A stretch of DNA of 40,597 nucleotides. It comes from Nitrospirota bacterium. GTDB lineage: Bacteria; Nitrospirota; Thermodesulfovibrionia; Thermodesulfovibrionales; UBA6898. Position 1 is the stretch's first letter, and every line of letters starts with the position of its first letter. The translations under genes were made by a program, and so were the position numbers. Below the pieces are notes generated by a model, which saw only the letters and a list, made by a program, of their open reading frames with translations, was not told the origin of the DNA and did no database searches. The stretch lies in assembly GCA_021783515.1 (NCBI GenBank), contig JAJXTV010000033.1, positions 1-40,597 of the forward strand, in the 5' to 3' direction. Below, piece by piece: positions 19,091-40,597 of the stretch.

Positions 19091-19112
19091 ACGTTCTTAT
19101 TCCCTGCGGCGC

Positions 19113-20936: not shown

Positions 20937-20971
20937 GTGAGCACAGGACGGCGAGCACAGGACGGCGAGCA
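20937..20971. repeat. Heptanucleotide repeat array before manC
   Basis: Five contiguous 7-nt units alternate two words, GTGAGCA/GCGAGCA and CAGGACG. The 14-bp pair GAGCACAGGACGGC is exactly duplicated. The array ends 26 nt before the manC ATG. Confidence 0.75.
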
Positions 20972-20997
20972 GTCTTTATTGAGAGAGGGGTGATGGC

Positions 20998-22509: not shown

Positions 22510-22510
22510 C

Positions 22511-23923
22511 GTGTCCCCGGCGTCTTTATCAGTTTCTTATAGAATGATCGACAAGACGATTTTCAGGCAATATGATATCAGGGGCGTCTGGGGGCGGGAG
22601 TTGACGCCTGAGGCTGCGCTGCTGATCGGCAGGGCCTTCGGCACCTATATCGGCCGCAGTTCACAGAAGGGCTCCCCGAGGATAACCGTCGGCAGGGACG
22701 TGAGGCTGAGCTCGGGTCCGATCGCGGCGGAACTGATCGGGGGGCTTGCGTCCACCGGCGCAGAGGTGGTCGATATCGGCGAATGCCCGACTCCGGTGCA
22801 GTATTTTTCGCTCTACCGTCTTGCGGCGGACGGCGGCGTCATGGTCACCGGCAGCCACAATCCTCCCGAATATAACGGCTTCAAACTCTGCCTCGGCAAA
22901 GAGACGATCTACGGCCAGGAGATACAGAAGATCCGGGAGATCATCGAGAGAGGGGCCTTCGACGAGGGAAACGGCAGGGTCGAAGAGAGGCCGGTGACCG
23001 GAGAGTATATCGACCACCTCAGGAAGGACTTTGGCGATCTCTCCGGCATCAGGGTTGTGCTCGACGCCGGGAACGGTACGGCGGGTCTTGCCGCCCCCGC
23101 GGTCGTGGAAGGGCTCGGCGCCGACGTCGTCAGGCTCTTTTGCGAGCCTGACGGGAACTTTCCGAACCATCATCCCGATCCGGTGGTGGCTGAAAACCTC
23201 TCCGCTTTGATACGGAAGGTGGAGGAGACGGGGGCGGACATCGGTGTCGCCTATGACGGAGATTCCGACAGGATCGGCGTCGTCGACGCGCGGGGCGATA
23301 TTATATGGGGAGACCGGCTGATGGTCATTTTTTCCCGGTCCATCCTGAAAAGGTCCCGAGGGGCCGCCATCATCGGAGAGGTGAAATGCTCGCAGGTGAT
23401 GTACGACGAGATCAGGCGCTGCGGCGGGATGCCGATAATGTGGAAGACCGGCCATTCGCTGATCAAGAAGAAGATGAAGGAAGAGAAGGCGCTTCTCGCC
23501 GGTGAGATGAGCGGCCATATATTCTTTGCCGACCGCTATTTCGGCTATGACGATGCGATCTATGCGACCCTGCGGCTGCTGGAGATCCTCAAGGAAAACG
23601 GAAGCCCCTATCGCATCGGCCGGCTGCTGGAAGGGCTGCCGGAGGTCTTTTCGACCCCCGAGATCAGGTTGGACTGCCCCGATACGCTGAAATTCAGGGT
23701 GATAGAACGGATGCAGGAGGCGTTCATCGGATATGACGTCAACACCACCGACGGGGCCAGGGTCAACTTCGGGAACGGATGGGCGCTCGTCAGGGCCTCC
23801 AATACTCAGCCGGCTCTGGTGATGAGGTTCGAGGCGCAGAGCGAGCCGTCGCTGAAGAAGATACGGGCGGTCGTGGAGGGAAAACTGGAAGAAACGATGA
23901 AGACGGTTAAAAATCAAGCATGA
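22511..23923 (+). CDS. manB: Phosphomannomutase / phosphoglucomutase
   Basis: The 470-residue alpha-D-phosphohexomutase converts mannose-6-P to mannose-1-P and probably acts on glucose phosphates too. The active-site phosphoserine loop is TGSHNPPEYNGFK, the metal-binding loop DGDSDRIG, the sugar-binding loop GEMSGH, and the C-terminal phosphate-binding loop RASNTQP. I report the GTG at 22511, which has GAGGCGGG upstream; the ATG at 22544 (MIDKTIFRQYDIRG) is where conservation begins and is an equal candidate. It forms an operon with manC and the following dehydrogenase. Confidence 0.93.
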   Translation: MSPASLSVSYRMIDKTIFRQYDIRGVWGRELTPEAALLIGRAFGTYIGRSSQKGSPRITVGRDVRLSSGPIAAELIGGLASTGAEVVDIGECPTPVQYFSLYRLAADGGVMVTGSHNPPEYNGFKLCLGKETIYGQEIQKIREIIERGAFDEGNGRVEERPVTGEYIDHLRKDFGDLSGIRVVLDAGNGTAGLAAPAVVEGLGADVVRLFCEPDGNFPNHHPDPVVAENLSALIRKVEETGADIGVAYDGDSDRIGVVDARGDIIWGDRLMVIFSRSILKRSRGAAIIGEVKCSQVMYDEIRRCGGMPIMWKTGHSLIKKKMKEEKALLAGEMSGHIFFADRYFGYDDAIYATLRLLEILKENGSPYRIGRLLEGLPEVFSTPEIRLDCPDTLKFRVIERMQEAFIGYDVNTTDGARVNFGNGWALVRASNTQPALVMRFEAQSEPSLKKIRAVVEGKLEETMKTVKNQA

Positions 23924-23940
23924 GGAGTCGGGAGGCGAGC

Positions 23941-25272
23941 GTGAAAAAGGGGAATAAGAGAATTCTAAAAGAACTGTCTGATGCCATCGGGAATAAGAAG
24001 GCGACGGTCGGTGTGATCGGGCTCGGCTACGTAGGCATTCCCCTGGCGATCGCCTTCAATAAAGCGGGTTTCTCCGTCCGCGGCTTCGACGTCGATCCGC
24101 GGAAGATCCCGCTTCTCAGGAGGGGAAGAAGCTATCTGAGACATATCCCCTCGGGGGAGATTCGGGCGATGAACGAGACCGGCCGGTTTGTCGCGACAGA
24201 TGATTTTTCGCTCATCCGCAATACCGACTGCATCTGCCTCTGCGTGCCGACCCCCCTCGACAGCCACCATCAACCGGACCTTTCCTATGTGATCAATACG
24301 GCGAAGACCGTCGGCAGGTATCTCCGGCCGGGGCATCTCATCGTTCTCGAAAGCACCACCTATCCCGGGACCACGCAGGAGGAGGTCAGGCCGATTCTCG
24401 AGAGCAACGGCCTCAGGGCCGGGAGGGACTTTTTCCTGGCATATTCTCCGGAGAGGGAGGACCCGAACAACCCGCGTTTTTCGACCCGCACCATCCCGAA
24501 GGTCGTCGGGGGCTGCACGAAGAGCTGTCTGCAGGCGGCCGGGGCGCTCTATCGCGCCGTTGTCGAGACGGTCGTGCCGGTTTCTTCCATGGACGTCGCC
24601 GAGGCGGCGAAGCTTCTCGAAAATATCTACCGCTCGGTGAACATCGCGCTCGTGAACGAGTTGAAGGTCTGCTTCGACAGGATGGGCATCGACGTCTGGG
24701 AGGTGATCGGAGCGGCAAAGACGAAGCCCTTCGGGTTTCAGGCATTTTATCCCGGCCCCGGGCTGGGGGGCCACTGTATACCGATCGACCCTTTTTATCT
24801 CACCTGGAAGGCGAGAGAGTTCGATTTCCACACGAGGTTTATCGAACTCGCAGGAGAGATCAATACCGCGATGCCCTATTATGTCGTCTCTCGCCTCGGC
24901 GAGGCGCTTAATAGCGGGGGAAAAGGGGTGAAGGGTTCGCGCATACTCGTCCTCGGGCTTGCCTACAAGAAAGACGTCGACGACGTCAGAGAATCGCCGT
25001 CGCTGAAGCTGATCGAACTGCTCCGGGGGAAGGGTGCGAAGGTCGATTACCACGACCCCTATGTCCCCAAAACGAGGAAGTCCCGCGAATACGACCTCAG
25101 GATGACATCGGTCCCTCTGACCGCCGCCAATCTCGGGAAGTACGACTGCGTGCTCATTTCGACGGACCATTCGGTCTTCGATTACGATTTCATCGTCAGG
25201 CACAGCAGGCTTGTGGTGGATACGAGAAACGCCACTGCAGGGATGAAGTCGAAGAAGATCGTGAAGGCGTAA
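23941..25272 (+). CDS. Nucleotide-sugar 6-dehydrogenase (WbpA-like)
   Basis: A UDP-sugar dehydrogenase of about 443 residues. It has Rossmann motif GLGYVGIPLA, CVPTPLD, ESTTYPGTT, SPEREDP, and catalytic Cys in GLGGHCIPIDPFY. C-terminal NAD-domain motifs are GLAYKKDVDDVRESPS and DTRNA. GGHCIPIDPFYL followed by TWKARE and FIELAGEIN is typical of WbpA-type UDP-GlcNAc dehydrogenases. It makes a UDP-uronate by two successive oxidations. No other candidate for UDP-GlcA synthesis is in the window, so a UDP-glucose substrate is also possible. I prefer the GTG at 23941 with GGGAGG just upstream; an ATG at 23920 overlaps the manB stop by 4 nt. Confidence 0.88.
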   Translation: MKKGNKRILKELSDAIGNKKATVGVIGLGYVGIPLAIAFNKAGFSVRGFDVDPRKIPLLRRGRSYLRHIPSGEIRAMNETGRFVATDDFSLIRNTDCICLCVPTPLDSHHQPDLSYVINTAKTVGRYLRPGHLIVLESTTYPGTTQEEVRPILESNGLRAGRDFFLAYSPEREDPNNPRFSTRTIPKVVGGCTKSCLQAAGALYRAVVETVVPVSSMDVAEAAKLLENIYRSVNIALVNELKVCFDRMGIDVWEVIGAAKTKPFGFQAFYPGPGLGGHCIPIDPFYLTWKAREFDFHTRFIELAGEINTAMPYYVVSRLGEALNSGGKGVKGSRILVLGLAYKKDVDDVRESPSLKLIELLRGKGAKVDYHDPYVPKTRKSREYDLRMTSVPLTAANLGKYDCVLISTDHSVFDYDFIVRHSRLVVDTRNATAGMKSKKIVKA

Positions 25273-25352
25273 AGGCTGTGGAAGGTGAAGACACGAGGCT
25301 CAGGGGCGCTTTCAATTATTCGCTTCGAGCTCTCCGTGCTCATTCTTCTTGC

Positions 25353-26422
<1,070 letters not shown>

Positions 26423-26520
26423 TTTGGGAAGGGACTGTCTTCAAGGAGATGGCGAATGGTGAGACGAACGGTCGCTGTGGTAAACTAAAATAGCATCCGG
26501 GAGCTTTACCGTAATGCCCG

Positions 26521-26567
26521 GGCGGCTTCAGATGAATGCCGCCGGAGGGGGGTGAAACGACGGTTTC
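26521..26567 (+). other. Two hairpins in the GT2 leader
   Basis: GGCGGC (26521-26526) pairs with GCCGCC (26538-26543), and TGAAAC (26552-26557) with GTTTCA (26562-26567). They lie in the 238-bp gap between galE and the GT2 gene, 41 nt before its ATG. I could not match this to a known riboswitch or ribosomal leader. A TAAAAT at 26486-26491 could be a -10 box, without a good -35. Confidence 0.4.
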
Positions 26568-26608
26568 ATCTCTCTGAACAGGGAACGACCTGAAGAGGAA
26601 CAGGAACT

Positions 26609-27595
26609 ATGGAGAACGTATCGATCGTAATCCCCGTCTATAATGCAGAGCAGACGATCGAGCTGCTCTGTGAGACGCTGGTTGCCCTGTATGCGGAAAA
26701 GTATGGCCTCGAAATCATCCTGGTGAACGACTTCAGCAATGATAATTCCGACGCAATCTGCAGGTTGCTCCAGTCGAGGCATGCCGCGATTGTCACCTAC
26801 ATCAAGCTGGCGAAAAATTTCGGCGAGCATAACGCGCTGATGGCGGGATTGCATCACGCGACGGGCGACTATTGCGTCATGATGGACGACGACCTCCAGA
26901 ACCCCCCGGAAGAGGTCGGGAAGCTGGTCGAAGAGATCAAAAAGGGATACGATGTGGTGTATACCTGTTTCGAAGAGAAGCGCTACGGGATATTCAGAAG
27001 GCTCGGCAGCTTTTTCAACGACAAAATGGCAACTCTAGTGCTCAAGAAGCCCGCCTCACTTTATTTGTCGAGTTTTAAGGCGGTCAACAGGTTCCTTGCG
27101 CAGGAGATCATCAAATACGACGGTCATGACCCGTATATCGACGGCGTGATCCTAAGATCGACGGGCAGCATCGGGAGTGTGAGGGTGACGCACCGGGAGA
27201 GGTCCTACAGCAGATCAGGGTATACCTTCGGCAAACTGGTCTCGCTCTGGGGCAGCATGGTGGTCAATTATTCGCTCTTCCCGATCCGCGTAATCGGCGT
27301 TCTTGGTACATTTCTTGTCGCGCTGAGCATTTGCTACTCGCTGTACAAGGCCTTCGACGACATTGCCACAAGGGGAATCCTTTCGAATTATGAGACGCTC
27401 ATGTCTGCCAATTTGCTCTTCAGAGGGTTCGCCCTGATTGCGCTCAGCGTACTCGGAGAGTATGTCGGCAGGATCTATCTTGCCCTCAACAAGGACCCGC
27501 AATTCGTCATACGCGATAGGGTGTCTGCGAGGAAAAAGACGCAGAAGGTGGAGCTTGTGCGGAACACGCGGGAAGATGGACGGAAAGAAGGCTGA
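26609..27595 (+). CDS. GT2 polyprenyl-phosphate glycosyltransferase (GtrB/ArnC-like)
   Basis: The 328-residue protein has a GT-A domain (about 1-225) with VSIVIPVYNAEQTIE, VNDFSNDNS, the DxD-type MDDDLQNPP and a basic HREREYSRSGYT-like segment (HRERSYSRSGYTFGKL). Two transmembrane helices follow (about 230-252 and 270-290). This layout is that of DPM1/GtrB/ArnC enzymes, which load a sugar onto undecaprenyl phosphate at the inner membrane. It leads the deoxyaminosugar cassette: the next ATG lies 20 nt inside its 3' end. It may load the product of that pathway, or supply the GT39-like transferase. Confidence 0.88.
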   Translation: MENVSIVIPVYNAEQTIELLCETLVALYAEKYGLEIILVNDFSNDNSDAICRLLQSRHAAIVTYIKLAKNFGEHNALMAGLHHATGDYCVMMDDDLQNPPEEVGKLVEEIKKGYDVVYTCFEEKRYGIFRRLGSFFNDKMATLVLKKPASLYLSSFKAVNRFLAQEIIKYDGHDPYIDGVILRSTGSIGSVRVTHRERSYSRSGYTFGKLVSLWGSMVVNYSLFPIRVIGVLGTFLVALSICYSLYKAFDDIATRGILSNYETLMSANLLFRGFALIALSVLGEYVGRIYLALNKDPQFVIRDRVSARKKTQKVELVRNTREDGRKEG

Positions 27596-28364
27596 GGAAG
27601 AGAGCGGCCCCGGAGCGGATGATTCCGGGGGCAGCTGTTTCCCTAAACCGGACAGCCCGGTCCTCCCCCGCATCGCGTTCGACAGGAAGTTTTTTTTCGA
27701 TCTCTTCGTCTCGCGGACGACGCAACAGGCGCTCCATGACGACGACTTCGTGGAGCGGTGGATCGGCGGCCGGCTCTCCAGCGCGAAGCTTGAATCGAGC
27801 GTCGTCCCGATTTCCGCGGTCGATCGCTGGAGCCTGGGGCCGACGGGCAACATTCAGCACGAATCGGGGAGATTTTTTTCTGTCACCGGCCTTGAGGTGC
27901 GCCACCGGACGAAGAATGAGGAGATCTCATGGGACCAGCCGATTATCGAACAGCCCGAGATCGGCATCCTGGGGATACTCGCAAGGAAATTCGTTGGCGT
28001 TCTTCATTTCTGCCTGCAGGCGAAGGAGGAGCCGGGCAATATCAACTCGGTCCAGCTTGCGCCGACGGTGCAGGCCACCTACAGCAATTATACACAGGTC
28101 CACGGGGGAAGGCTGCCGCTTTTTATCGACTTGTTTCTCGATCCTCCTCATGAGCGGCTGCTCTTTTCCCGGCTTCAGGCCGAAGACGGCGGGAGGTTCC
28201 TGTATAAGTCGAACAAGAACATGGTGATCGAGGCCGGCGCCGGCGAGGCGACCGCACTGCCGGAGGAATTTATCTGGCTGACGCTGCGCCAGATAAGCGG
28301 CCTTATGCGGAGGGACAATACCATAAACTCGTGCACGAGGAGCGTTCTTTCATGTCTGATCTGA
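27576..28364 (+). CDS. NDP-hexose 2,3-dehydratase, first half-size subunit
   Basis: A 262-residue protein equal to one module of the two-module NDP-hexose 2,3-dehydratases (EvaA, TylX3, SpnO; usually about 450-480 residues). Family motifs present are WDQPIIEQPEIGILGIL, QAKEEPGNINSVQLAPTVQ, the SNY after it, EDGGRF, and the C-terminal NTINSCTRSVLSCL. Fused enzymes remove the C2 hydroxyl from dTDP-4-keto-6-deoxyglucose to give a 3,4-diketo-2,6-dideoxy sugar. The ATG overlaps the GT2 gene by 20 nt and is the only plausible start. The next gene encodes a second module homologous to this one, so the two probably assemble as a heteromer. Confidence 0.88.
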   Translation: MDGKKAEEESGPGADDSGGSCFPKPDSPVLPRIAFDRKFFFDLFVSRTTQQALHDDDFVERWIGGRLSSAKLESSVVPISAVDRWSLGPTGNIQHESGRFFSVTGLEVRHRTKNEEISWDQPIIEQPEIGILGILARKFVGVLHFCLQAKEEPGNINSVQLAPTVQATYSNYTQVHGGRLPLFIDLFLDPPHERLLFSRLQAEDGGRFLYKSNKNMVIEAGAGEATALPEEFIWLTLRQISGLMRRDNTINSCTRSVLSCLI

Positions 28365-29116
28365 CCGGGGACCCCGAAATGGGGAGGCTTTTGTCGGAAC
28401 TCGCCGCGCCGCCGGACCTTTTCGGGACTATCAGGGCAAACCTGATACGGGAGCAGGCATGCGGTCTTTTCCCCGACGAAGAAGACGGAAACAGCCTCAG
28501 GGACATCGTGCAGTGGCTCGACGACGAACGTGCATCGAACCATATCCGCGCGGAACGGCAGGGGCTGAGCTCTCTTTCGGAATGGGGGATGGACGGCGAG
28601 GGTTTTTTCTCCCATAAAGAGAAGAAGTTTTTTCAGGTCGTCGGGCTGAAAGTCACGTCGCCTTACCGGGAAGTTGGCACATGGAGCCAACCGATTCTCG
28701 ACAATGCCGGGACCGGGCTGGTCGGCCTTCTGATCAGGCGCGCCGGTGACAGGACGTATTTTCTCATGCAGGCGAAGCCCGACGTCGGAAACCGCAACGT
28801 CGTGCAACTCGGCCCCACCGTCCAGTTCAACCCCGGAAATTACATCGATAACAAGAAAATAAGGAAACCGTTTCTGTTCGATGATTTCCTGCACGACCGC
28901 GGGTTCGTGCCGGTGATGACGAGCAGACAGTCGGAAGAAGGGGGGAGGTTTTACAAGGAAGAGCAGGTGCATAAGATCCTTTTGCTCCAGGGAGGCCGTG
29001 ACCTTGCCCTCCCGTCCTCTCATCGCTGGCTCTCCTCCGGCCAGGTACGGTTCTTCCTGCATCTGGGCGACGTCGTCAATTCCTCCGCAAGAAGCATACT
29101 AGCCTGCCTTCTCTGA
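28352..29116 (+). CDS. NDP-hexose 2,3-dehydratase, second half-size subunit
   Basis: A 254-residue paralogue of the preceding protein and the second module of EvaA-type 2,3-dehydratases. Matching motifs are WSQPILDNAGTGLVGLL, QAKPDVGNRNVVQLGPTVQ, GNY, EEGGRFY and the C-terminal VVNSSARSILACLL. The start at 28352 is supported by GAGGAG about 10 nt upstream, within the last codons of the first gene (13-nt overlap, different frame). This looks like two translationally coupled genes. A frameshift splitting one gene is the alternative. The aminotransferase gene follows after 19 nt. Confidence 0.88.
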   Translation: MSDLTGDPEMGRLLSELAAPPDLFGTIRANLIREQACGLFPDEEDGNSLRDIVQWLDDERASNHIRAERQGLSSLSEWGMDGEGFFSHKEKKFFQVVGLKVTSPYREVGTWSQPILDNAGTGLVGLLIRRAGDRTYFLMQAKPDVGNRNVVQLGPTVQFNPGNYIDNKKIRKPFLFDDFLHDRGFVPVMTSRQSEEGGRFYKEEQVHKILLLQGGRDLALPSSHRWLSSGQVRFFLHLGDVVNSSARSILACLL

Positions 29117-29135
29117 TGGGGGAGATCGGACTCCG

Positions 29136-30260
29136 GTGATCAGCTACTGGAATTATCTGGGAGATTACGGCAGACGGCGCGAGGAGATATTGCGCATCGT
29201 CGACAGGGTTTTTTCGTCCGGCCGACTGATCCTGGGCGGAGAAGTCGAGTCCTTCGAAAAGCGATTTTCCTCGTTCTGCGGCGTCCCGTTCGGTGTGGGC
29301 GTAAATTCCGGCACGGATGCGCTTTTCCTCGGACTCAAGGCCCTTGGCGTCGGGGACGGGGACGAGGTGATCACTGTGGCGAACACCGCCGTGCCGACCG
29401 TGGCGGCGATCCGTGCGACCGGGGCGACGCCGGTATTCGTAGACGTGGAGGAGAAGACGTATCTGATGGATGCGTCCCTCATCCGGCCGGCAATTACGGG
29501 GAAGACGAAATGCGTTCTCCCCGTGCACCTGTTCGGACAAGCGGCCGATATGGACGCCATTGCGGCCGTGGCCGCGCCGGCCGGTCTGCGGGTCCTTGAG
29601 GACTGCGCCCAGGCGGCGGGCGCCCTTTATAGGGGCAGGCCCGTCGGCGGCATCGGCGATGTCGGCGCGTTTTCCTTTTATCCGACGAAGATCCTCGGCG
29701 CATTCGGCGATGCCGGCATGGTCGTAACGAAGGACGAGGGCCTGTACCGTAAGGTCAGGAGGCTCAGGTTTTACGGCATGGAACAGGCGTATTACTCGGA
29801 AGAGGAGGGGTATAATTCGCGTCTGGACGAGGTGCAGGCGGCGCTCCTGAGCTTTGCCCTGTCAAACCTGAAAGAGGCGGTCCGGAAGAGGCGGGAGCTC
29901 GCGGCCCGCTACTCGGAGGGGCTCCGGGGCATAGGCGATGTCGGTCTCCCTGAGGTATGCGAAGACCGTACGCACCAGTTTTATGCCTACACCATCTCCA
30001 CAGGCCGGAGGGACGAGCTGATGCGCTTTCTGAAGGAATGCGGCATAGAGACGAAGATCAATTATCCCGCGCCCGTTCACGTTATGCGCGGCTATGCCTT
30101 CCTCGGGTACCGGCCGGGCGACCTGCCGGTTACCGAGAAGATGGCGGCCAGGATGCTCTCCCTGCCGCTCTTCCCCGATCTCTTGCCGGCCGAGGTGGAT
30201 GAGGTCGTCGATCGGATAACGGCCTTCTTCCGGACGGGGGGCCGCAGGGGCCGTGCGTGA
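29136..30260 (+). CDS. DegT/DnrJ/EryC1 sugar aminotransferase
   Basis: The 374-residue PLP enzyme has GVNSGTDALFLGLKALG, the DCAQAAGA segment binding the cofactor ring, and the Schiff-base lysine in FSFYPTKILGAFGDAG. The region YNSRLDEVQAA is typical of nucleotide-sugar aminotransferases. It most resembles the 3-ketosugar type (DesV, TylB, EvaB, QdtB). After a 2,3-dehydratase it would aminate C3 of the 3-keto intermediate, as EvaB does after EvaA in epivancosamine synthesis. The GTG start at 29136 has GGGGGAG upstream; the 3' end overlaps the methyltransferase by 8 nt. Confidence 0.92.
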   Translation: MISYWNYLGDYGRRREEILRIVDRVFSSGRLILGGEVESFEKRFSSFCGVPFGVGVNSGTDALFLGLKALGVGDGDEVITVANTAVPTVAAIRATGATPVFVDVEEKTYLMDASLIRPAITGKTKCVLPVHLFGQAADMDAIAAVAAPAGLRVLEDCAQAAGALYRGRPVGGIGDVGAFSFYPTKILGAFGDAGMVVTKDEGLYRKVRRLRFYGMEQAYYSEEEGYNSRLDEVQAALLSFALSNLKEAVRKRRELAARYSEGLRGIGDVGLPEVCEDRTHQFYAYTISTGRRDELMRFLKECGIETKINYPAPVHVMRGYAFLGYRPGDLPVTEKMAARMLSLPLFPDLLPAEVDEVVDRITAFFRTGGRRGRA

Positions 30261-31722: not shown

Positions 31723-32409
31723 ATGCAGGAAAGACGGCATCGCAAGAGGTTCGTTGTGGAAGGGATGGACATCCACGGCAAGATGATCTTTGCCACGGAG
31801 GTCAGGGTCCTCAACGTAAGCGTCGGCGGAATTTCGCTGAAGGCCGACAAGCGGCTGAATATCGGGAGCGAGTATTCGCTGAAGCTTTTAGACGGCGAAA
31901 AGACGGTCGCACTGAGAGGGACGGTCGTCTGGTCTGCTCTCAGCGGACACCGGGAGGGGCCTCACGGTGACGTGGTCCCCTTCTATACGGCCGGCCTGAA
32001 GTTCGTCAACCTCGTCAGCGACAAGGCGGCGGAGTTCGTCGCTTTTATCGGGGAGCATCTCGCAAGCGAGGAGCAGAGGGTAGGGGGCCTGAGGGTGACG
32101 ATCACCAGCCCGGAAAAGGCGATCCTGAACTACCCCTCGGACTATCTGGTGAAGAATCTCAGTCTGACCGGCATGCTGATCGAAGGCACTCAGGAGATCC
32201 GCGTCGGGCTCAGACTGCCGATGGAGATGTCGCTGCCCGACGACATGCCCATCCGTTTCATGGGCAGGATCACCGCCTGCCGTCATATGCACGAAAAGGG
32301 CTCGGACCATTTCGATATCGGGATCGCGTTCATGACTATGGAGGAGAAGGACACGGAACGGCTGAAAGATTTCGTCAGCCTTCTCCGCCGCATGGACGAC
32401 ATCTCCTGA
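31723..32409 (+). CDS. Double-PilZ-domain protein
   Basis: The 228-residue protein has two PilZ-like beta-barrels. The first (about 3-115) has an RxxxR-type segment in ERRHRKR and the NVSVGGISL (D/NxSxxG) motif, so c-di-GMP binding is expected. The second (about 120-225) retains NLSLTGMLI but lacks an obvious RxxxR, so it may be structural or bind ligand poorly. A GGGAG ribosome-binding site precedes the ATG, with a strong promoter upstream. It stands alone between the PPC gene and the chaperone-usher locus. Confidence 0.82.
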   Translation: MQERRHRKRFVVEGMDIHGKMIFATEVRVLNVSVGGISLKADKRLNIGSEYSLKLLDGEKTVALRGTVVWSALSGHREGPHGDVVPFYTAGLKFVNLVSDKAAEFVAFIGEHLASEEQRVGGLRVTITSPEKAILNYPSDYLVKNLSLTGMLIEGTQEIRVGLRLPMEMSLPDDMPIRFMGRITACRHMHEKGSDHFDIGIAFMTMEEKDTERLKDFVSLLRRMDDIS

Positions 32410-32538: not shown

Positions 32539-33000
32539 TTACCAAAGGATGATGACGGTCAAAGCATCGCTATATATACCTGCGGACACATCCTGTCCGG
32601 GGAAAAGCCGTGCGTAAATAATGTCCGACACCGTTTTCTTGCTGGGATCATGGACGACGACTTGTGTCCCCGATGAAATCCCGTCCCCCCAGATAGCGCT
32701 CATCGAGGCATCCGTAAAAACATTATATGCCAGCTGATCCTGCCCGCCGGTTTTCCTCATCCATCTCGGATTGAAAGTCCCTGAGCTTGCACTCGGACTT
32801 ATGGAGATTGTCACCATCGGCCAGGGCGCGCTGCAGGTCACGGTTATCGATCCCGTGGAGTCCAGAGGGGTGGAAGAGAAGACGTCGTAGTTCCCGAAGT
32901 TGACGCCTGTTGCCGATACAAAGCAGTTGGATGCGGCGTCAGAAACATCCGCAAGAAAGATGCAAAGGAGCAATATCCAGAATTCAGCGCATTTCTTCAC
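32539..33000 (-). CDS. SCPU-domain minor pilus subunit, possible tip
   Basis: A 153-residue exported protein with a spore-coat-U (SCPU) fold typical of archaic chaperone-usher pilins. The GTG at 33000 has GGAAGG upstream and gives a clean signal peptide (KKCAEFWILLLCIFLADVSDA). Domain hallmarks are NCFVSATGVNFGNYDVF, a second Cys in TVTC, and the C-terminal LFPGQDVSAG-Y-D-LTVIILW strand. The mature chain starts almost directly at the first Cys. The alternating hydrophobic N-terminal donor strand of the other three SCPU proteins here is absent. A subunit that accepts but cannot donate a strand should sit at the tip. It overlaps the usher 3' end by 17 nt. Confidence 0.8.
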   Translation of the reverse strand: MKKCAEFWILLLCIFLADVSDAASNCFVSATGVNFGNYDVFSSTPLDSTGSITVTCSAPWPMVTISISPSASSGTFNPRWMRKTGGQDQLAYNVFTDASMSAIWGDGISSGTQVVVHDPSKKTVSDIIYARLFPGQDVSAGIYSDALTVIILW

Positions 33001-35392
33001 AAACAAGCCTTCCGAGGTCAATGATCATCTCGTCATTCTCCGGTATTATTATATCAAATGAGCATTGTTTTTCCTGGCATGAAAGTGTCGCATGATGTTT
33101 GCCGGGCCTGATGTTTTCGAAATAGAACTCTCCTCCCCTTCCTGTCGGAGAGGTCACTTCCTTGCCGTTGACTGTTATGCCGAGCTCACAAAATTCAGCC
33201 GGCATAACTTGTCCCGTCATTTTGCTGTTCAGCTTGCCCGTAATCGCCTGGAATTTTGAGGCTTCGAAGGCGATCAGCGAACCGCTTCTCAGAGGGGGGG
33301 AAACATACCTGACCACCTCTTTGATCGAATAATTCATGGGGATGTCCTTATCATTGATGGAAATCTGATTGTCATAGTATGAGCCAAGGTTCGGCAGAAA
33401 GACCCGGCCGGAGGCGTCAGTACGCCCTATCTCCTCATTGTTCTGGTATACCCTGACGCCTTCAAGATTTGCTACCTTTGCGAGGGCGAAGCTGTCGTTG
33501 ATCGGGCGGCTGAAACCGAAGGTATTGCCTATGTAGGCGATGCTTCCGGCGGCGGTAAGATTATACAGGTCGGCGCCACCCGAGCTTGCGGACTGCCTCG
33601 AATATTCCGCGGTATATATTCCGTAACGGCCGTTATACTGAAACGACGGGTTTACCGTAGTGACATCGCCGGAACCTGTCTGGGCATTGCTGAACGACGC
33701 CCTGTAGCCAAACCCCTGGCCTACGGGAGGGTTTTTCTGTACCTGCACGGTTTCACTATTCAGGCCAGCGCTTCTCTCAAAATTCGACGATACGACCGTC
33801 TCTTCCCGGGGATAATATGTCAGTCCGACGAGGAAGTTGTTCGAGGACGCTATCTCATTCCTGTGGGTGAACGACGCGAGCAGCATAAGCTTCCGCGAAA
33901 GATTTCTCGAATAGCTGATCCCGAACGAGCGGCTGTCCTGTCCGACATATTTGGAGACCTTGTCAAAGAAAAAAGAGAAGGAACCCAGCCTTTCATTGCT
34001 GTATCCAAAGACGGCCCCTGTCTCGTATTTTGTCTTGTCCAGCAATAATTCGCTGCCGATGGTGGCGTAGTCCTTTGTGAAACCCCTAAAGAATGCCTGG
34101 GTATTCATCCTGGCATTCTGATATCCGTAATTCACCGTCCCGGCGAGACCTGCCCTGTTGTCCGCATTCCTGCTCCCCGCAAGGGAAAGGGTGGCAACAC
34201 CCGCTTTCCGCATAAGGAACGACGCCTGAGCCCCGAGACTGTAATTGCCCCTTCCTCCCTCTGAAGAGATCCCGATGCTGAAGTCGTCGGCCACGCCATA
34301 TCGGTGAAAACCCGAGTAAGCGAAACCGCTGTAATTATTGCTCTCGAATCCGAGATCGTTTCTTATCATGCCTACATTGTAGCTGTATTCATGAAGACCC
34401 TTTCTTAGCAGGATGTCGGTGAAATAGAAGGGATACCTTACGATCTGGACCCGTCCGAAGGCGTCTTTTATCACAACCTCCACGTTGTTTGCGCCCCCGT
34501 AATAATACAAATTATTCAGCATGAACTCGCCCGGCGACAGCTTCTCGGTGCCTATGCGTATCTTGTTCATATAGACCTCCATGGTGGAGGGCAGGGACGC
34601 AAACCCTGTGAAGTGGGCGGTTGGATATCTGATAAGATACGGGTCTATGTCGTAAATCTTGGAAAAACTCAGGCCTCCGAGTGTCACGCTACTCCCCAGG
34701 TCGCCGGACGATGCGACGAAATCGCCGGCAATGAACCTCTGCAAATCGTCCCTCCTGTCGTAGGTCAGACTGCTCATAAGCCTTACGAATGTCGAATGTT
34801 CCGGCGTCTTCGTGTAGGAGGTGTCCGTGAGAAAGAGAAGGCTGCCGGCCCTCGCGCCCAGTTGATTATTCAGATTGAAGTCCTGGAAAGTGAAAGAATT
34901 GCCTGCGCCATAGCCGAGGCCATAGTTCAGAAAGGCCGCTGAATCCTTCGGATAATAAATGTTTGGCGGTCTCCTCGGCATAAAGTCAAGCGTTCTCTCA
35001 GGAAAGAGTGATGGATCGGCCGTAATCTTAAGCGAAAGCGTATTTTCGTTGAAGCTGAACGTTACCCCTCCCATTGACTTCAGGGAAATATACTGCTCCC
35101 CCTCGATTTCCTGCGTCCTTCCCCTGACGACCGACAAGCCCAGGGACTTCATGTCGGATGTTTTCACCAAGAAATCCCCCCCGGCGGTCCGGTTCACGAA
35201 GAATTCGCCTTTGGTCTCGGTGTTGAGTATTACGCCCACTACCATTGTTTCCTCCTTCCCCGTCGCTGCGGCATCCCGAAACATCCCCTCCGAGGCGTGG
35301 GCATTCAGGGAGAGCAGGAGAAGGACCAGAGAAAATGCAGGACAAATCACGACAGGCATGACAACACCGGATAAAAGATGGAAGACGCGCAT
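32984..35392 (-). CDS. Outer-membrane usher, archaic chaperone-usher pilus
   Basis: An 802-residue usher from the ATG at 35392, which begins a good signal peptide (MRVFHLLSGVV... to NAHA-SEG). The frame stays open 59 codons further upstream into the chaperone gene, but that part is basic and unlike any usher. Visible are the N-terminal periplasmic domain (GEFFVNRTAGGDFLV), the barrel start DFNLNNQLGARAGSL, SLPSTMEVYMNKIRIG, GGANNVEVVIKDAFGR (plug/middle region), and C-terminal domains with NNEEIGRTDASGRVFLPNL and GRGGEFYFENI. It secretes and orders the SCPU subunits. The ribosome-binding site is weak, and 127 nt separate it from the chaperone. Confidence 0.92.
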   Translation of the reverse strand: MRVFHLLSGVVMPVVICPAFSLVLLLLSLNAHASEGMFRDAAATGKEETMVVGVILNTETKGEFFVNRTAGGDFLVKTSDMKSLGLSVVRGRTQEIEGEQYISLKSMGGVTFSFNENTLSLKITADPSLFPERTLDFMPRRPPNIYYPKDSAAFLNYGLGYGAGNSFTFQDFNLNNQLGARAGSLLFLTDTSYTKTPEHSTFVRLMSSLTYDRRDDLQRFIAGDFVASSGDLGSSVTLGGLSFSKIYDIDPYLIRYPTAHFTGFASLPSTMEVYMNKIRIGTEKLSPGEFMLNNLYYYGGANNVEVVIKDAFGRVQIVRYPFYFTDILLRKGLHEYSYNVGMIRNDLGFESNNYSGFAYSGFHRYGVADDFSIGISSEGGRGNYSLGAQASFLMRKAGVATLSLAGSRNADNRAGLAGTVNYGYQNARMNTQAFFRGFTKDYATIGSELLLDKTKYETGAVFGYSNERLGSFSFFFDKVSKYVGQDSRSFGISYSRNLSRKLMLLASFTHRNEIASSNNFLVGLTYYPREETVVSSNFERSAGLNSETVQVQKNPPVGQGFGYRASFSNAQTGSGDVTTVNPSFQYNGRYGIYTAEYSRQSASSGGADLYNLTAAGSIAYIGNTFGFSRPINDSFALAKVANLEGVRVYQNNEEIGRTDASGRVFLPNLGSYYDNQISINDKDIPMNYSIKEVVRYVSPPLRSGSLIAFEASKFQAITGKLNSKMTGQVMPAEFCELGITVNGKEVTSPTGRGGEFYFENIRPGKHHATLSCQEKQCSFDIIIPENDEMIIDLGRLVCEEMR

Positions 35393-35502
35393 ATCCCGCG
35401 TCAAAGGCGTGGGGGAACAACGGTGGCGAGGCATCTTCCGATATGTTCCTAGCAATCGGGCGATAACGGGAAAACGGCTGATGGTCCTGCGTATGCGTAC
35501 GC

Positions 35503-35519
35503 GCCGGCGTGATGCCGGC
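35503..35519 (-). other. Hairpin between chaperone and usher genes
   Basis: GCCGGC and GCCGGC (a self-complementary hexamer, 35503-35508 and 35514-35519) form a 6-bp stem with a 5-nt loop directly after the chaperone stop codon. The palindrome GCGTACGC lies beside it at about 35496-35503. No T-tract follows. It may adjust transcript stability between chaperone and usher. Confidence 0.5.
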
Positions 35520-36287
35520 CTAGGGAAGGCACATGGTCTTGTCCACATCCAGATTACCGTTAACGGCAAATTTATCCGTCTTGACTTCGACAGCGATCTT
35601 CGCTATGCCGGAGCATATGTCCTGCGGAATTGCAGCCGAGTACGAACGCGAAGCGCCGCTGAGAAGATACCAGCCCGGAAGTTCCTTCGAAAACTTTTCT
35701 TCACCTTTGAGGTCTTTCCCTTTTACGATTATGGACTCAATCCTGAAATGCACGTTGCCGGAGTTCTTCACGAGCATTTCAACGTTGCCTTTAGACATGA
35801 CGAGTCTTGCTATCTCACCCTTCGGCTCTTCTTTAAGGGGTTTTACGAAAATAGGGACACCGAACTTTATTGCTATCGCAACGGTGCTTCCCGCGCCCTT
35901 GCCGTGTTCGGGTATCTCCTCTATGAACAACCGGTATGTCTTCTCCTTCGCCACGGCCGGTATCTTTATCCCGGCCCGGATGATCTTTTCTTCTTTCTTT
36001 TCGAATACCATTATCTTCGGGAAGAAGACGATATCCCCGGTATCAGAATAGACGTCCTTCCCCTCGGAGTCCTGCGTCCAGTCCGAGGCATATATCTGCA
36101 CCTGTAATTTCCTGTCTTCGTCATTGCTGACGGTTATGACGGCACTCCTTGAATCCCTGCTGAAATCCAGTCTGATGGGGGTTACCCCCCAAGCCCCGGA
36201 ATAAGCGGCAGGAGGAAGGAGGAAGGAAAAAGAAATGAGGCCCGCGAACAAAAAGAGGGTCAGAAGAATCTTGTGCTTTGTTTTCAT
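35520..36287 (-). CDS. Periplasmic pilus chaperone, archaic type
   Basis: A 255-residue PapD-like chaperone. The ATG at 36287 gives MKTKHKILLTLFLF... and a signal peptide ending at AAYSGA. A TTG 36 nt upstream is a weaker start. Domain 1 shows VTPIRLDFSRDSRSAVITVSND and, on the G1 region, EKTYRLFIEEIP; AIKFGVPIFVKP follows, all typical of fimbrial chaperones. Domain 2 has VKNSGNVHFRIESI. It would fold SCPU subunits by donor-strand complementation and deliver them to the usher. It is the first gene of the minus-strand structural arm. Confidence 0.9.
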   Translation of the reverse strand: MKTKHKILLTLFLFAGLISFSFLLPPAAYSGAWGVTPIRLDFSRDSRSAVITVSNDEDRKLQVQIYASDWTQDSEGKDVYSDTGDIVFFPKIMVFEKKEEKIIRAGIKIPAVAKEKTYRLFIEEIPEHGKGAGSTVAIAIKFGVPIFVKPLKEEPKGEIARLVMSKGNVEMLVKNSGNVHFRIESIIVKGKDLKGEEKFSKELPGWYLLSGASRSYSAAIPQDICSGIAKIAVEVKTDKFAVNGNLDVDKTMCLP

Positions 36288-36375
36288 TGAAATTACTATA
36301 GCAGAACAGGGGGGCAGTTTCAATGAGAGGGTCAGAAGGGTCCCAAGATATCGAAGGACGTAAATCCCCTAAGGG

Positions 36376-36969
36376 TTACAGATTCCCGCCATCAGCGGAA
36401 GAGCTGTGAGACATCGTTGAAACCAGCGCTATTAAGCGGCCTCTGGACCTGACCTCCATCTTCCGCATAATATTTTTCAGGTGGTCCTTTGCGGTATGCT
36501 CCGAAATAAAGAGCTTTTCCGATATTTCCTTGTTTGAGAGTCCCTGACAGACGCAGGCGAGCACCGCCGCCTCCCTTTTGGTGAGGTTGAACCGGGACTG
36601 GGCCTCATCGAGGTCGCCGGCAGACTGGCTTGGAGCCATCTTCTCTACAAGAAGCATGACATGAGTGGGTGAAGTGCTCCTGTCCCCCTGTCCCATCATG
36701 ATGGCCATTACCGAGCAGGGAGTTCCCTCTCCCGTTTCGGCAACGATTAACTCCTTGTGCGAAGGCGATTTTCCCCCGGCAATCTTTTCCCTTATTTTCG
36801 CATGAAGGTCCATAACCTCAGACGGGAGAGATTTTGCGTCAGACGCCCCCTTAAGCTCCGGAAAAAGTTCGAGCGCTTTGGCGTTAAGATAAAGGAGGGC
36901 GCCTTCCATGCTGAGAATGATGACTCCAGGTTCTCCGCGGCGTATGGGAAAATCGGACGCGTTCTCCAT
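36376..36969 (-). CDS. PAS-LuxR transcription regulator
   Basis: The 197-residue protein has an N-terminal PAS-like domain (GVIILSMEGALLYLNAKALELFPEL) and a C-terminal LuxR/FixJ helix-turn-helix (LTKREAAVLACVCQGLSNKEI, HTAKDHLKNIMRKM). It lacks a receiver domain, so a small ligand, redox change or protein partner would be sensed by the PAS part. The ATG at 36969 has GGAAG 5 nt upstream; a GTG at 37014 is less likely. It sits between the two arms of the pilus locus and is divergent from the PilZ-pilin operon, so it is a likely local regulator. Confidence 0.85.
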   Translation of the reverse strand: MENASDFPIRRGEPGVIILSMEGALLYLNAKALELFPELKGASDAKSLPSEVMDLHAKIREKIAGGKSPSHKELIVAETGEGTPCSVMAIMMGQGDRSTSPTHVMLLVEKMAPSQSAGDLDEAQSRFNLTKREAAVLACVCQGLSNKEISEKLFISEHTAKDHLKNIMRKMEVRSRGRLIALVSTMSHSSSADGGNL

Positions 36970-37024
36970 GCACTTCCATTCTAAAACAAAACCGAAACGT
37001 TGTAAAATCCCCACTTTCGAGGGA

Positions 37025-37054
37025 TTGACCGCATAGGGTGCCTTCCATTATGCT
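37025..37054 (+). promoter_or_regulatory. Weak candidate promoter ahead of the PilZ-pilin operon
   Basis: TTGACC (37025-37030) and TATGCT (37049-37054) are 18 bp apart in the short divergent gap. The -10 would overlap the reported ATG at 37050. If this promoter is used, translation probably starts at the ATG at 37062, with almost no leader. Confidence 0.3.
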
Positions 37055-37358
37055 GAATTCAATGGAAGAGGATGTGACACCACCCAGGCGGGCAAAAAGA
37101 GTATCAATCGATTCGGACATAGAGTTCGAAAAGAGCATCCACCTGATATCGGAGAACATAGTTTATTCCGGTCGCGGTCGTGACATAAGCTCAGGCGGAC
37201 TCGGTCTTGTCAATGGCGAGAGACTCGAAGTAGGCTCGGTGATCAAGATCTACCTGCCTTTTGACGGCAAGGGGACCATCGTCCCCGTCTTTGGCGAGGT
37301 GGTCTGGTCTGAGGAGATCGACGGGCAGTTCCGGAGCGGTGTAAGGTTTCTGGCCTGA
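37050..37358 (+). CDS. Single-domain PilZ protein
   Basis: A 102-residue PilZ protein. The N-terminus holds the c-di-GMP-binding RxxxR (RRAKR), and DISSGGLGLV supplies the D/NxSxxG motif. The barrel closes with FGEVVWSEEIDGQFRSGVRFL. Both motifs are intact, so it should bind c-di-GMP. ATGs at 37050 and 37062 and a GTG at 37038 are possible starts, none with a strong ribosome-binding site. Its stop codon overlaps the ribosome-binding site of the first pilin gene (9-nt gap), so pilin and PilZ are co-transcribed. A c-di-GMP-responsive role in pilus assembly is inferred. Confidence 0.85.
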   Translation: MLNSMEEDVTPPRRAKRVSIDSDIEFEKSIHLISENIVYSGRGRDISSGGLGLVNGERLEVGSVIKIYLPFDGKGTIVPVFGEVVWSEEIDGQFRSGVRFLA

Positions 37359-37367
37359 GGAGAAGGC

Positions 37368-37859
37368 ATGGGACTCATTGGGAAGATAAGTGGTACTATG
37401 GCTATTCTTTCAGTAGTGATCGCTGCAGCCGGAGGTGAGGCATCGGCAGGCACGGCGACAACTTCATTCACCGTTCAGACAAATACCATAGCCGTCTGCA
37501 AAATAACGACTGCGGCGGCAACCATGGACTTCGGAAATTATGATCCAACCGCCACAGCCGATAACGACAACGGGCTCGGGAGTTTCGGCTTTAAGTGCAC
37601 AAAAGGCACCGCATATAAAGTCTATATCGCTGGAGGCCGGACGATGGCCGCCGGCTCGGAGTCACTGTCCTTCGAGATGTATTCCGACCCCGGACGTTCG
37701 ATCATCTTCCCGGACACCAATGCGGCAGGTATTTCGGGCAGCGCCTCCAGCAATGGGATCGAGATAATCACGAATATCTACGGCAGGATACCTGCGGGGC
37801 AGGATGTGACCGCAGGCAAGACGTTCACTCAAACGCTGACAGCGACAGTAGATTACTGA
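37368..37859 (+). CDS. SCPU-domain pilus subunit 1
   Basis: A 163-residue exported spore-coat-U pilin. TGAGGAG lies 8-9 nt upstream. A signal peptide ends at EASA-GT. The mature N-terminus TTSFTVQTNTI is an alternating hydrophobic donor strand, followed by the first Cys (AVCKI), DFGNYDP, the second Cys (FKCTKG) and the C-terminal YGRIPAGQDVTAG...TLTATVDY. These match the SCPU subunits of Csu-type pili, and this is the most canonical of the set. It differs clearly from subunits 2 and 3. Confidence 0.88.
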   Translation: MGLIGKISGTMAILSVVIAAAGGEASAGTATTSFTVQTNTIAVCKITTAAATMDFGNYDPTATADNDNGLGSFGFKCTKGTAYKVYIAGGRTMAAGSESLSFEMYSDPGRSIIFPDTNAAGISGSASSNGIEIITNIYGRIPAGQDVTAGKTFTQTLTATVDY

Positions 37860-38007
37860 TACAGGGTGTGGTGAGGTATGTGTGAAGATCTGAGATCGTT
37901 TGAGAAGGGGAGGTGAGGCAGCAAATCTTTCTGTGGGAAAAGGCAGATTCGTCTAAGGCAAAACAACTGGCGGGCATAAAGAGACCCGCAAATAAGAAGG
38001 AGGCAGT

Positions 38008-38466
38008 ATGAAGAAGCTAGCAGTAGTAATGGTCGCAATGATGATTGTGGGGATGGCAGCAACGGCAATGGCAGCCGATACAAACACCCTTACGGTCTCG
38101 GCGACTGTGCAGGGAGCATGTAAGTTCGTTTCGACCACATCAACACTTGCTTTTGGCGCTCTCGATCCCTCCGTCGGCACTAACGTAAACGGAACGGGAA
38201 CAACCCAGTTCTGGTGCACCAAGGGCGTAACCGAAAGCATCACGGCAGACAACGGCCTTAATTTTGCCGCCTCACGGCAGATGAAGGACCCTGTCAGCAC
38301 CGATGTCATTCCCTATTCCCTGACCCTCACACCGGACGGCAATCCCAACAGCGGGCCCACCTCTCCGAGGACCTTGACGATCGCCGGCACGGTCCTTGGA
38401 ACGGATTACATTACGAAGACCGCCGGAAGTTATTCCGATACGGTAATGCTGACCATAACCCCATAG
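38008..38466 (+). CDS. SCPU-like pilus subunit 2
   Basis: A 152-residue exported protein with a strong AAGGAGG ribosome-binding site. A signal peptide ends at AMA-AD. The mature start TNTLTVSATV is an alternating donor strand, then a Cys (GACKF), STLAFGALDPS, a second Cys (QFWCTKG), and the C-terminal GSYSDTVMLTITP. It is closely related to subunit 3, so the two are recent paralogues. The strong initiation site and central place suggest the major shaft subunit; that is an inference. Confidence 0.85.
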   Translation: MKKLAVVMVAMMIVGMAATAMAADTNTLTVSATVQGACKFVSTTSTLAFGALDPSVGTNVNGTGTTQFWCTKGVTESITADNGLNFAASRQMKDPVSTDVIPYSLTLTPDGNPNSGPTSPRTLTIAGTVLGTDYITKTAGSYSDTVMLTITP

Positions 38467-38485
38467 GGCAGGCCTGGGACTGGCA

Positions 38486-38525
38486 CTAAGGAAGAGGGGT
38501 AAAGAGCATTACCCCTCTTCCTTAG
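38486..38525 (+). other. Perfect 17-bp hairpin between pilus subunits 2 and 3
   Basis: Positions 38486-38502 and 38509-38525 are exactly complementary (17 bp, 6-nt loop). The stem includes AAGAGGGGTA and its complement. It lies 20 nt after the stop codon of subunit 2 and 49 nt before the ATG of subunit 3. No T-tract follows. It fits a transcript-stabilising or partial-termination element that would raise subunit 2 over subunit 3. Confidence 0.8.
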
Positions 38526-38574
38526 GCAGCATGGTCTGGGGCAGGAAAGAATTCAGTAAGAGGGCGGCATCATT

Positions 38575-39063
38575 ATGAAGATCATCTCTGGCATACTTGT
38601 CATTATCTCCCTGCTAGTGCTGGCTGGGGGAGTTTGCCATGCCGCCGGTTCGAATACCCTTACCGTGAGCGCGGTAGTCATTTCCAAAAGCAACTGCAAA
38701 TTTAACACCGCCACATCGACCCTCAATTTCGGCAACCTGGACCCTTTAAGCTCTGCCGATGTTACTGCAAGCACTACAACGGCGTTCCGTTGTGTAGGAA
38801 GCTCGCCTATTGCGACATTTTTTATCAGTCAGGACTTCGGAGCGCACAAGACCGGGCCGGGCGGAAACAGGATGATAAATACGACATATCCGGTCCCGCC
38901 CGCATATTTACCGTATTCGCTTACCCTTAATCCGTCCAGCGGGACGGTGCCGAAAAATTCGACTCAGACCCTTACGATTACAGGCACCGTCCTGGCGAGC
39001 GATTTCCAGAGCGCCTATGTCGGCAATTATTCAGATACCGTCATACTCACCATTGCGCCGTGA
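38575..39063 (+). CDS. SCPU-like pilus subunit 3
   Basis: A 162-residue exported protein paralogous to subunit 2. A signal peptide ends at CHA-AG. The donor-strand-like SNTLTVSAVVI precedes the first Cys (NCKF), then STLNFGNLDPL, a second Cys (FRCVG) and the C-terminal GNYSDTVILTIAP. GAGGGCGG lies 8-10 nt upstream. The hairpin before it suggests lower expression than subunit 2, as for a minor or adaptor subunit. Confidence 0.85.
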   Translation: MKIISGILVIISLLVLAGGVCHAAGSNTLTVSAVVISKSNCKFNTATSTLNFGNLDPLSSADVTASTTTAFRCVGSSPIATFFISQDFGAHKTGPGGNRMINTTYPVPPAYLPYSLTLNPSSGTVPKNSTQTLTITGTVLASDFQSAYVGNYSDTVILTIAP

Positions 39064-39105
39064 AGAGTGAAAACCAGGGCAACTGTATGCGGCGGGAGAA
39101 GAAGG

Positions 39106-40597
39106 ATGGGGCGGACGAGTGAAATTGCCGGCAGGATGCCTGCAAAAGCACTGAATCGCTTTTTCGCGAGGGTATTTCTGCCGGCCTTGTTCATTGCCGC
39201 CGCCGCATATCACGGCAATGCATCGGCCGGGACATACCAGTATTCGGGGACGCTTCCATCAGGCGACCTTTCCTACTTTAGCAGTCCGTTCGGGGTCGCG
39301 GTCGACGGCTCGGGGAATCTCTATGTTGCTGACTCGGGCAACCATCGCATCCAGAAGTTCGATCCTGCCGGGGCGTATGCCGGTACGCTCGGCGAGACGG
39401 GCGTTCCGGGAACGGACAACAGTCATTTCAATTCCCCGCAAGGGGTGGCGGTTGACGGCTCGGGGAATCTCTATGTTGCTGACTCGGGCAACCATCGCAT
39501 CCAGAAGTTCGATTCTGCCGGGGCGTATGCCGGTACGCTCGGCGAGACGGGTGTCCCGGGAACGGACAACGGTCATTTTTATAATCCATACGGGGTGGCG
39601 GTCGACGGCTCGGGCAATCTCTACGCGGCTGATACATATAACCATCGCATTCAGAAGTTCGATTCTGCCGGGGCGTATGCCGGTACGCTCGGCGAAACGG
39701 GTGTCAAGGGAACGGACAACGGTCATTTTTATTATCCATGCGGGGTGGCGGTTGACGGCTCCGGCAGTCTTTATGTGGCCGATTCGAACAATCAACGCAT
39801 TCAGAAGTTCGATTCTGCCGGGGCGTATGCCGGTACGCTCGGCGAAACGGGTGTCAAGGGAACGGACAACGGTCATTTTTATAATCCATACGGAGTGGCG
39901 GTTGACGGCTCGGGGAATCTCTATGTTGCTGACTCGGGCAACCATCGCATCCAGAAGTTCGACCCTGCCGGGCTGCACGCAGGCACGCTGGGAGTAACGG
40001 GTATTTCGGGAACGGACGACAGCCATTTCAATTATCCGTGCGGAGTGGCGGCAGACGGCTCAGGGAATCTCTATGTGGCTGACATGGGAAACGACCGCAT
40101 CGAGAAGTTCGACCCTGCCGGCGCGCACGTGAGCACCTTGGGGAGCAGTGGCACGGATAACGGCCATTTCAATTATCCATACGGAGCGGCAATAGACGGC
40201 TCAGGGAATCTCCATGTGGCCGACATGGGAAACAGTCGCATCCAGAAGTTCTCTCCTCCGGGGGTATATGCGGGCACACTGGGAGCAGCGGGCATCGCAG
40301 GCGCGGACAATGGCCATTTCTATTATCCGAAGGGAGTGGCGGCAGACGGCTCAGGGAATGTTTATGTGGCTGATACATATAACCATCGCATCCAGAAGTT
40401 CGATGCTGCGGGAGCATATGCCGGCACGCTCGGCGAAACGGGCGTTCAGGGAACAGACAGCAGCCATTTCAACTTTCCACAGGGTGTAGCTGTTGACGGC
40501 TCAGGGAATGTTTATGTGGCTGATACAGGCAATGAGCGCATCCAGAAGTTCGATGCTGCGGGAGCATATGCCGGCACGCTCGGAGAAACGGGCGTTC
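39106..40597 (+). CDS. Exported NHL-repeat protein, 3' end outside window
   Basis: At least 497 codons, open to the window end. The ATG at 39106 has GGGAG/GAAGG upstream and gives a signal peptide (LPALFIAAAAYHGNASA-GT). Nine NHL repeats follow, each with the core VDGSGNLYVADSGNHRIQKF or a variant, spaced 50 residues apart (47 between the sixth and seventh). NHL repeats form beta-propellers of about six blades, so this is more than one propeller. It follows pilus subunit 3 by 42 nt and may be part of that operon. A surface or matrix-binding role is an inference. Confidence 0.88.
   Translation, partial: MGRTSEIAGRMPAKALNRFFARVFLPALFIAAAAYHGNASAGTYQYSGTLPSGDLSYFSSPFGVAVDGSGNLYVADSGNHRIQKFDPAGAYAGTLGETGVPGTDNSHFNSPQGVAVDGSGNLYVADSGNHRIQKFDSAGAYAGTLGETGVPGTDNGHFYNPYGVAVDGSGNLYAADTYNHRIQKFDSAGAYAGTLGETGVKGTDNGHFYYPCGVAVDGSGSLYVADSNNQRIQKFDSAGAYAGTLGETGVKGTDNGHFYNPYGVAVDGSGNLYVADSGNHRIQKFDPAGLHAGTLGVTGISGTDDSHFNYPCGVAADGSGNLYVADMGNDRIEKFDPAGAHVSTLGSSGTDNGHFNYPYGAAIDGSGNLHVADMGNSRIQKFSPPGVYAGTLGAAGIAGADNGHFYYPKGVAADGSGNVYVADTYNHRIQKFDAAGAYAGTLGETGVQGTDSSHFNFPQGVAVDGSGNVYVADTGNERIQKFDAAGAYAGTLGETGV
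39301..40597 (+). repeat. 150-bp tandem repeats in the NHL gene
   Basis: Equivalent codons recur at 39301, 39451, 39601, 39751, 39901, 40051, 40192, 40342 and 40492: a 150-bp period with one 141-bp unit. The first five units are nearly identical at DNA level over long stretches, including synonymous sites. Units six to nine are more divergent. This points to recent duplication or gene conversion in the 5' units. Confidence 0.9.

Follow-up and report, generated by a model that had tools for sequence, protein, structure and literature searches.

A divergent archaic chaperone-usher pilus locus flanking a PAS-LuxR/PilZ regulatory cassette in a Nitrospirota bacterium

Pilus genes at the end of a 40,597-nucleotide stretch of Nitrospirota DNA (the whole stretch is referred to here as the window) run in two opposite directions, with a minus-strand arm comprising a tip SCPU subunit, an usher and a chaperone, a plus-strand arm comprising a PilZ protein, three SCPU pilins and an NHL protein, and a PAS-LuxR regulator between the arms (Table 1). 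The best overall explanation, which we regard as reasonably probable, is that archaic pilus genes were rearranged around a portable PAS-LuxR/PilZ cassette, whose LuxR protein would activate transcription and whose PilZ protein would feed c-di-GMP into the circuit. Established here are which genes are present and that they diverge, that the cassette recurs before unrelated exported proteins in several phyla, and where its operator lies relative to the PilZ -35 box.

Table 1 Features of the pilus locus and its regulatory region (positions in the window)
Position	Strand	Feature	Evidence
32539..33021	-	SCPU subunit without N-terminal donor strand, probable tip	SCPU 5.6e-26 (Pfam); alignment
32984..35395	-	Outer-membrane usher	Usher 1.9e-21 (Pfam); orthologues in 23 other genomes of the class
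35520..36287	-	Periplasmic PapD-like chaperone (alternative start TTG 36323)	PapD_N 8.4e-14 (Pfam)
36376..36969	-	PAS-LuxR (GerE) one-component regulator, 197 aa (alternative start GTG 37014)	GerE 7.9e-20 (Pfam); AlphaFold2 and Foldseek; orthologues in the same divergent cassette
36978..37006	-	Predicted luxR promoter, TTTACA-17-TAGAAT, -35 touching the operator's other side	
37007..37025	+	Palindromic operator ATCCCCACTTTCGAGGGAT, common to LuxR/PilZ cassettes	Pattern and PWM match
37025..37054	+	Predicted sigma-70 promoter of pilZ-SCPU, TTGACC-18-TATGCT, -35 abutting the operator	
37062..37358	+	Single-domain PilZ protein, 98 aa (alternative start GTG 37038)	PilZ 5.7e-11 (Pfam)
37368..37859	+	SCPU pilin 1	SCPU 2.5e-19 (Pfam)
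38008..38466	+	SCPU pilin 2	SCPU 1.7e-15 (Pfam)
38486..38525	+	Hairpin in the SCPU2-SCPU3 spacer, 17-bp perfect stem, 6-nt loop, no T tract	Spacer folding
38575..39063	+	SCPU pilin 3	SCPU 1.7e-8 (Pfam)
39067..40597	+	Exported NHL beta-propeller protein, cut by the contig end	NHL 3.3e-88 (Pfam)

The original prediction of an archaic chaperone-usher locus was borne out, as every gene it named is present and was confirmed by Pfam, giving the complete archaic set of SCPU pilins, PapD-like chaperone and usher. Like the archaic (sigma) pili Csu (PMC4654587) and CupE (PMC10104325), the locus combines SCPU pilins, a chaperone closest to CsuC (its sole sequence relative in the PDB, 3e-6), an usher and a tip gene placed after the usher. 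The pilin cysteine pair C44 and C77 is invariant in an alignment of 14 SCPU proteins, in which an N-terminal donor strand is found in three SCPU pilins and not in the usher-adjacent subunit. The latter had been predicted to be a minor subunit; it is indeed an SCPU subunit on the minus strand, but it is better named a tip subunit, because it lacks the donor strand of the other three. With 160 aa and one SCPU domain, this candidate differs from the two-domain tip adhesins CsuE and CupE6, and the split, divergent locus with PilZ and PAS-LuxR inside it differs from the single unidirectional operons of Csu and CupE. Judged from its sequence, the locus is an archaic chaperone-usher pilus without a two-domain adhesin. 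Csu and CupE match the pilus of the window only; control of CupE lies with the PprAB two-component system (PMC10104325).

The whole genome (98.7% complete) has a single usher and no further SCPU genes, and an usher-based scan of the genome_contigs set gave no match. GC content is 52.2% in the pilus block versus 59.0% in window positions 1-32500. The NHL gene starts 4 bp past SCPU 3, and the 108-nt SCPU2-SCPU3 spacer with its hairpin folds at -48.3 kcal/mol (z = -4.66); the hairpin is a possible processing or stability element and may set pilin stoichiometry. No Rfam or tRNA feature was found.

The layout was also predicted to be unusual, and comparison with other Nitrospirota supports this. 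Of 230 genomes searched across the class, an usher was found in 24, this genome among them, and the comparison set comprised 31 loci, 20 from the class (those with a readable chaperone, usher and at least one SCPU gene) and 11 from the wider phylum. All 31 are one-directional, usually in the order SCPU-chaperone-usher-SCPU, and none has a PilZ or LuxR gene of the cassette families between or beside its pilus genes. The window usher clusters with those of four genomes of other families (G027, G103, G092 and G031; support 100/100) and not with its own genus (G003). The four sister pilus loci each run in one direction, which makes the divergent layout a derived one; taking this together with the placement of the usher outside its own genus, we infer that the pilus was probably gained horizontally and that its divergence arose afterwards. 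The pilin set is mosaic, in that SCPU2 and SCPU3 resemble major pilins of the sister clade and SCPU1 the major pilins of the other clade; the nearest relatives of SCPU1 are major pilins of other Nitrospirota loci, at about 43-45% identity. In two loci of genus g123 of the phylum (L216 and L222), a convergent PilZ gene lies about 3.3-3.5 kb past the tip gene in both genomes.

The regulators have a different distribution, and here the linkage to pilus genes that the original prediction would have expected in relatives did not hold. Class searches with LuxR and with PilZ separately returned the same loci, in which the two genes are linked to each other and not to SCPU or usher genes, and the conserved unit is therefore the regulatory cassette. 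In other families of the class, divergent LuxR/PilZ pairs occur in the usher-free genomes G037, G135, G202 and G226 and in G203, which has its usher on another contig, while the pair lies on the same strand in G118 and both genes are at contig ends in G196. A scan of named genomes added Geobacter sp. AOG1, Geomobilimonas luticola, an uncultured Geobacter, Geothrix paludis and MAGs from Desulfuromonadaceae, Nitrospinota, Desulfobacterales and a deltaproteobacterium. No SCPU, usher or chaperone gene was found at these cassette loci outside the window. Among the genomes examined, only this one has the cassette joined to a pilus; the PilZ-SCPU gene order was sought in the others and not found.

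In most cassettes PilZ is the first gene of its transcript and the protein encoded next appears to be exported (a FecR, subtilase, NHL or RCC1 protein or an unknown secreted one), with a hydrophobic, signal-like N-terminus in most cases; in one, an AMP-binding enzyme follows PilZ, ahead of exopolysaccharide genes. Across at least four bacterial phyla the same cassette stands ahead of unrelated cell-surface genes, which gives it the look of a transferable switch linking surface structures with c-di-GMP. G118 has two cassette PilZ copies, one before an NHL protein and beside the same-strand LuxR gene (L075), the other before an RCC1-repeat protein (L076), and in both DxSxxG has degenerated to NxGxxG. 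A near-identical second PilZ in G037 (contig C17, L082), with no LuxR gene and a decayed operator-like sequence, looks like a recent duplication.

The PAS domain originally called in the LuxR protein was recovered by structure prediction. The AlphaFold2 model (pLDDT 81) has a PAS fold followed by a GerE HTH, despite the absence of a match to the Pfam PAS model, and its top Foldseek matches in the PDB, the PAS/LOV-LuxR one-component regulators EL222 and VqmA, share this two-domain architecture. Unlike EL222, it has no LOV cysteine motif, which is absent from all 14 aligned cassette LuxR proteins, and unlike both it is paired with a PilZ protein. That partner carries intact c-di-GMP motifs (RRAKR and DISSGG), and RxxxR and DxSxxG are present in 14 of 14 aligned cassette PilZ proteins. 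Alignment with relatives makes ATG 37062 a more likely start than GTG 37038; depending on the start, the protein has 98-106 aa and consists of the PilZ domain alone, with no YcgR-N domain and no signal peptide. The gap between PilZ and SCPU1 is 9 bp and contains a strong Shine-Dalgarno sequence, so that the predicted co-transcription of PilZ with the pilins is most likely correct. LuxR and PilZ have been inherited as one unit, because their distance matrices agree (Mantel r 0.86, p 5e-5), an agreement also expected from co-inheritance without contact.

What the cassettes share beyond their two proteins is a palindrome, which in the window is placed between the -35 boxes of both predicted promoters. 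A match to the operator pattern (ATCCCnCTTTCGAGGGAT) stands against the PilZ -35 box in 16 of 16 cassettes, and matches were observed in all 16 intergenic regions, where Markov shuffles of these regions would give 0.13; that expectation is somewhat optimistic because the pattern was composed after the sequences were seen. There is little doubt about the operator, given that it is conserved between phyla whose proteins share roughly 25-40% identity, as seen in the copies from the window (AAAATCCCCACTTTCGAGGGATTGACC), G135 (AAAATCCCCACTTTCGAGGGATTGACT), G203 (CCCCATATAGGGGAATTGAC), Geobacter (AAAATCCCTCTTTCGAGGGATTGAAT) and Nitrospinota (AAAATCCCACTTTTGAGGGATTGACT); most relatives have TTGAC-about 17-TAnnnT downstream of it. 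A PWM built without the window scored the window operator at 29.2 and the next distinct site in 40 kb at 16.0, and in its own genome the operator occurs once, at 37007-37025, with no other close match. LuxR is the likely reader of the operator, because the operator subtype tracks that of the LuxR recognition helix: CCCC-ATATA-GGGGAATTG goes with TVHDY, and TCCCnCTTTCGAGGGATTG (CTTTCG type) with TVKDH. The conserved operator thus lends support to the predicted control of transcription by LuxR.

Looser operator patterns, which might have pointed to a large LuxR regulon, gave 0-8 mostly chance-like matches per genome, and a CTTTCG-type site was found at the cassette only; a local operator is therefore favoured. 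The chaperone has a promoter-like site of its own, and the best candidate for a second operator before it (about 36384, minus strand) scored 13.5, below chance sites of 16.0 and 15.1. The sequence TTCCATT occurs three times around both -10 boxes (36974-37067), two copies forming an inverted repeat; as a second operator it was rejected, being weakly unusual (5% of shuffles) and not conserved. In a Deltaproteobacteria MAG (L095, 1200-5500), a secretin/pseudopilin operon and a NosD beta-helix gene lie between two operator-like sites additional to the cassette, a pattern that suggests a local regulon there.

We envisage LuxR binding, activation and modulation of the circuit by PilZ and c-di-GMP as follows. 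A LuxR dimer, tuned by a signal at its PAS domain, would bind the operator, which lies about 45 bp ahead of the predicted start, and activate the pilZ-SCPU1-2-3-NHL transcript, and possibly also its own luxR-chaperone-usher-tip transcript. PilZ, the first product, would then bind c-di-GMP and modulate the same circuit, most simply by contacting LuxR, and either a high c-di-GMP level or the PAS signal would lead to the production of adhesive pili. Activation is suggested by the position of the operator, since a centre at about -45 is the usual class II, or classic, activation site for LuxR/GerE-type proteins. Alternatively, LuxR bound to the same operator could repress pilZ-SCPU until the PAS signal, or PilZ with c-di-GMP, lifts the repression, and the operator's partial overlap with the abutting -35 box is compatible with occlusion of RNA polymerase; we consider this unlikely, given both the centre near -45 and the weak -10 boxes of many cassette promoters, as in activated promoters.

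It is also doubtful that the cassette is a bystander, brought between the arms by a rearrangement and with no part in controlling the pilus. The junction was seen in one genome only among those examined, on which its function rests, and the normal location of the cassette elsewhere, like the chaperone's own promoter-like site, would fit such a bystander. Against this, the sole operator of the genome lies exactly at the start of the pilZ-pilin transcript, PilZ and SCPU1 are closely spaced, and the cassette habitually drives exported surface proteins.

Control of the pili by c-di-GMP at the protein level, as the original prediction had it, could for example pass through the subunits, the usher or secretion, and would be in keeping with the intact c-di-GMP motifs and with a PilZ gene that adjoins, and is probably co-translated with, that of the first pilin. 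Chaperone-usher assembly, however, uses no cytosolic motor and needs only parts located in the periplasm and outer membrane, and PilZ, having no signal peptide, is cytosolic, which makes such control distinctly unlikely; moreover, the same PilZ heads subtilase, FecR and beta-propeller operons that have no assembly machine in common. Because of this cytosolic location and the lack of shared machinery among its downstream targets, action of PilZ on its constant partner LuxR would be more economical. That PilZ is itself a DNA-binding, c-di-GMP-dependent activator with LuxR as an accessory, after the model of MrkH, a PilZ protein that activates a chaperone-usher operon and whose PilZ domain binds DNA (PMC3161979, PMC5055493), is improbable, as MrkH has two domains and 234 aa against a bare 98-aa domain here, and the operator palindrome suits LuxR-type dimers and varies in subtype with the LuxR helix.

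Klebsiella MrkH/MrkI is nevertheless the nearest precedent and a clear functional one, being a PilZ and a LuxR-type protein encoded beside the type 3 fimbriae genes mrkABCDF, which they control according to c-di-GMP (PMC3161979). The window likewise has a PilZ protein with RxxxR and D/NxSxxG and a LuxR-type protein of 197 aa beside chaperone-usher genes, but assignment to the same family fails on domain structure and gene arrangement. MrkH joins a YcgR-N domain to its PilZ domain, whereas the window PilZ is single-domain; mrkH and mrkI form one operon, convergent with mrkABCDF and adjoined by an EAL gene, whereas here PilZ is divergent from LuxR and heads the pilin transcript, no EAL gene adjoins (the scanned neighbours are pilin, chaperone and NHL genes), the pilus is of the SCPU type and the pair recurs without pili. 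In the open literature we found no description of the cassette or its operator, and the PilZ/PAS-LuxR pair led only to MrkH/MrkI and unrelated cases. Each part is of a known kind; what looks new is the way they are combined, together with the operator.

A bolder version of the favoured explanation, which we put forward tentatively and with less than even confidence, is that the cassette is an undescribed, horizontally portable two-input switch, in which a PAS signal and c-di-GMP would be integrated by PilZ acting on LuxR, that has been placed before surface structures in several phyla and has here captured a complete chaperone-usher pilus, both arms of which would be driven from one operator. 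For most of the many single-domain PilZ proteins no partner is known; here, in at least four phyla, the regulator partner and the operator of such a protein stay the same while its surface-protein targets change, which offers a concrete, testable partner and promoter. If true, this would extend c-di-GMP control of chaperone-usher pili past the enterobacterial Mrk system and illustrate the recombination of regulators and pili.

The surroundings of the locus had been described as rich in c-di-GMP genes, which holds only in so far as one Cache-HAMP-GGDEF protein lies about 28 kb off and one PilZ gene at 31723-32409; nothing more was found in the 20 Pfam-scanned window genes. The latter gene encodes a tandem-PilZ protein of 228 aa and is convergent with the tip gene, 130 bp away; it was set aside as a member of the locus, its homologue in G020 (L083) lying amid unrelated genes and not linked to a pilus. 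Upstream of the pilus, window positions 16148-30260 hold an apparent polysaccharide gene cluster, in which the sugar enzymes were called from the translations only and a NusG-like factor was confirmed by Pfam.
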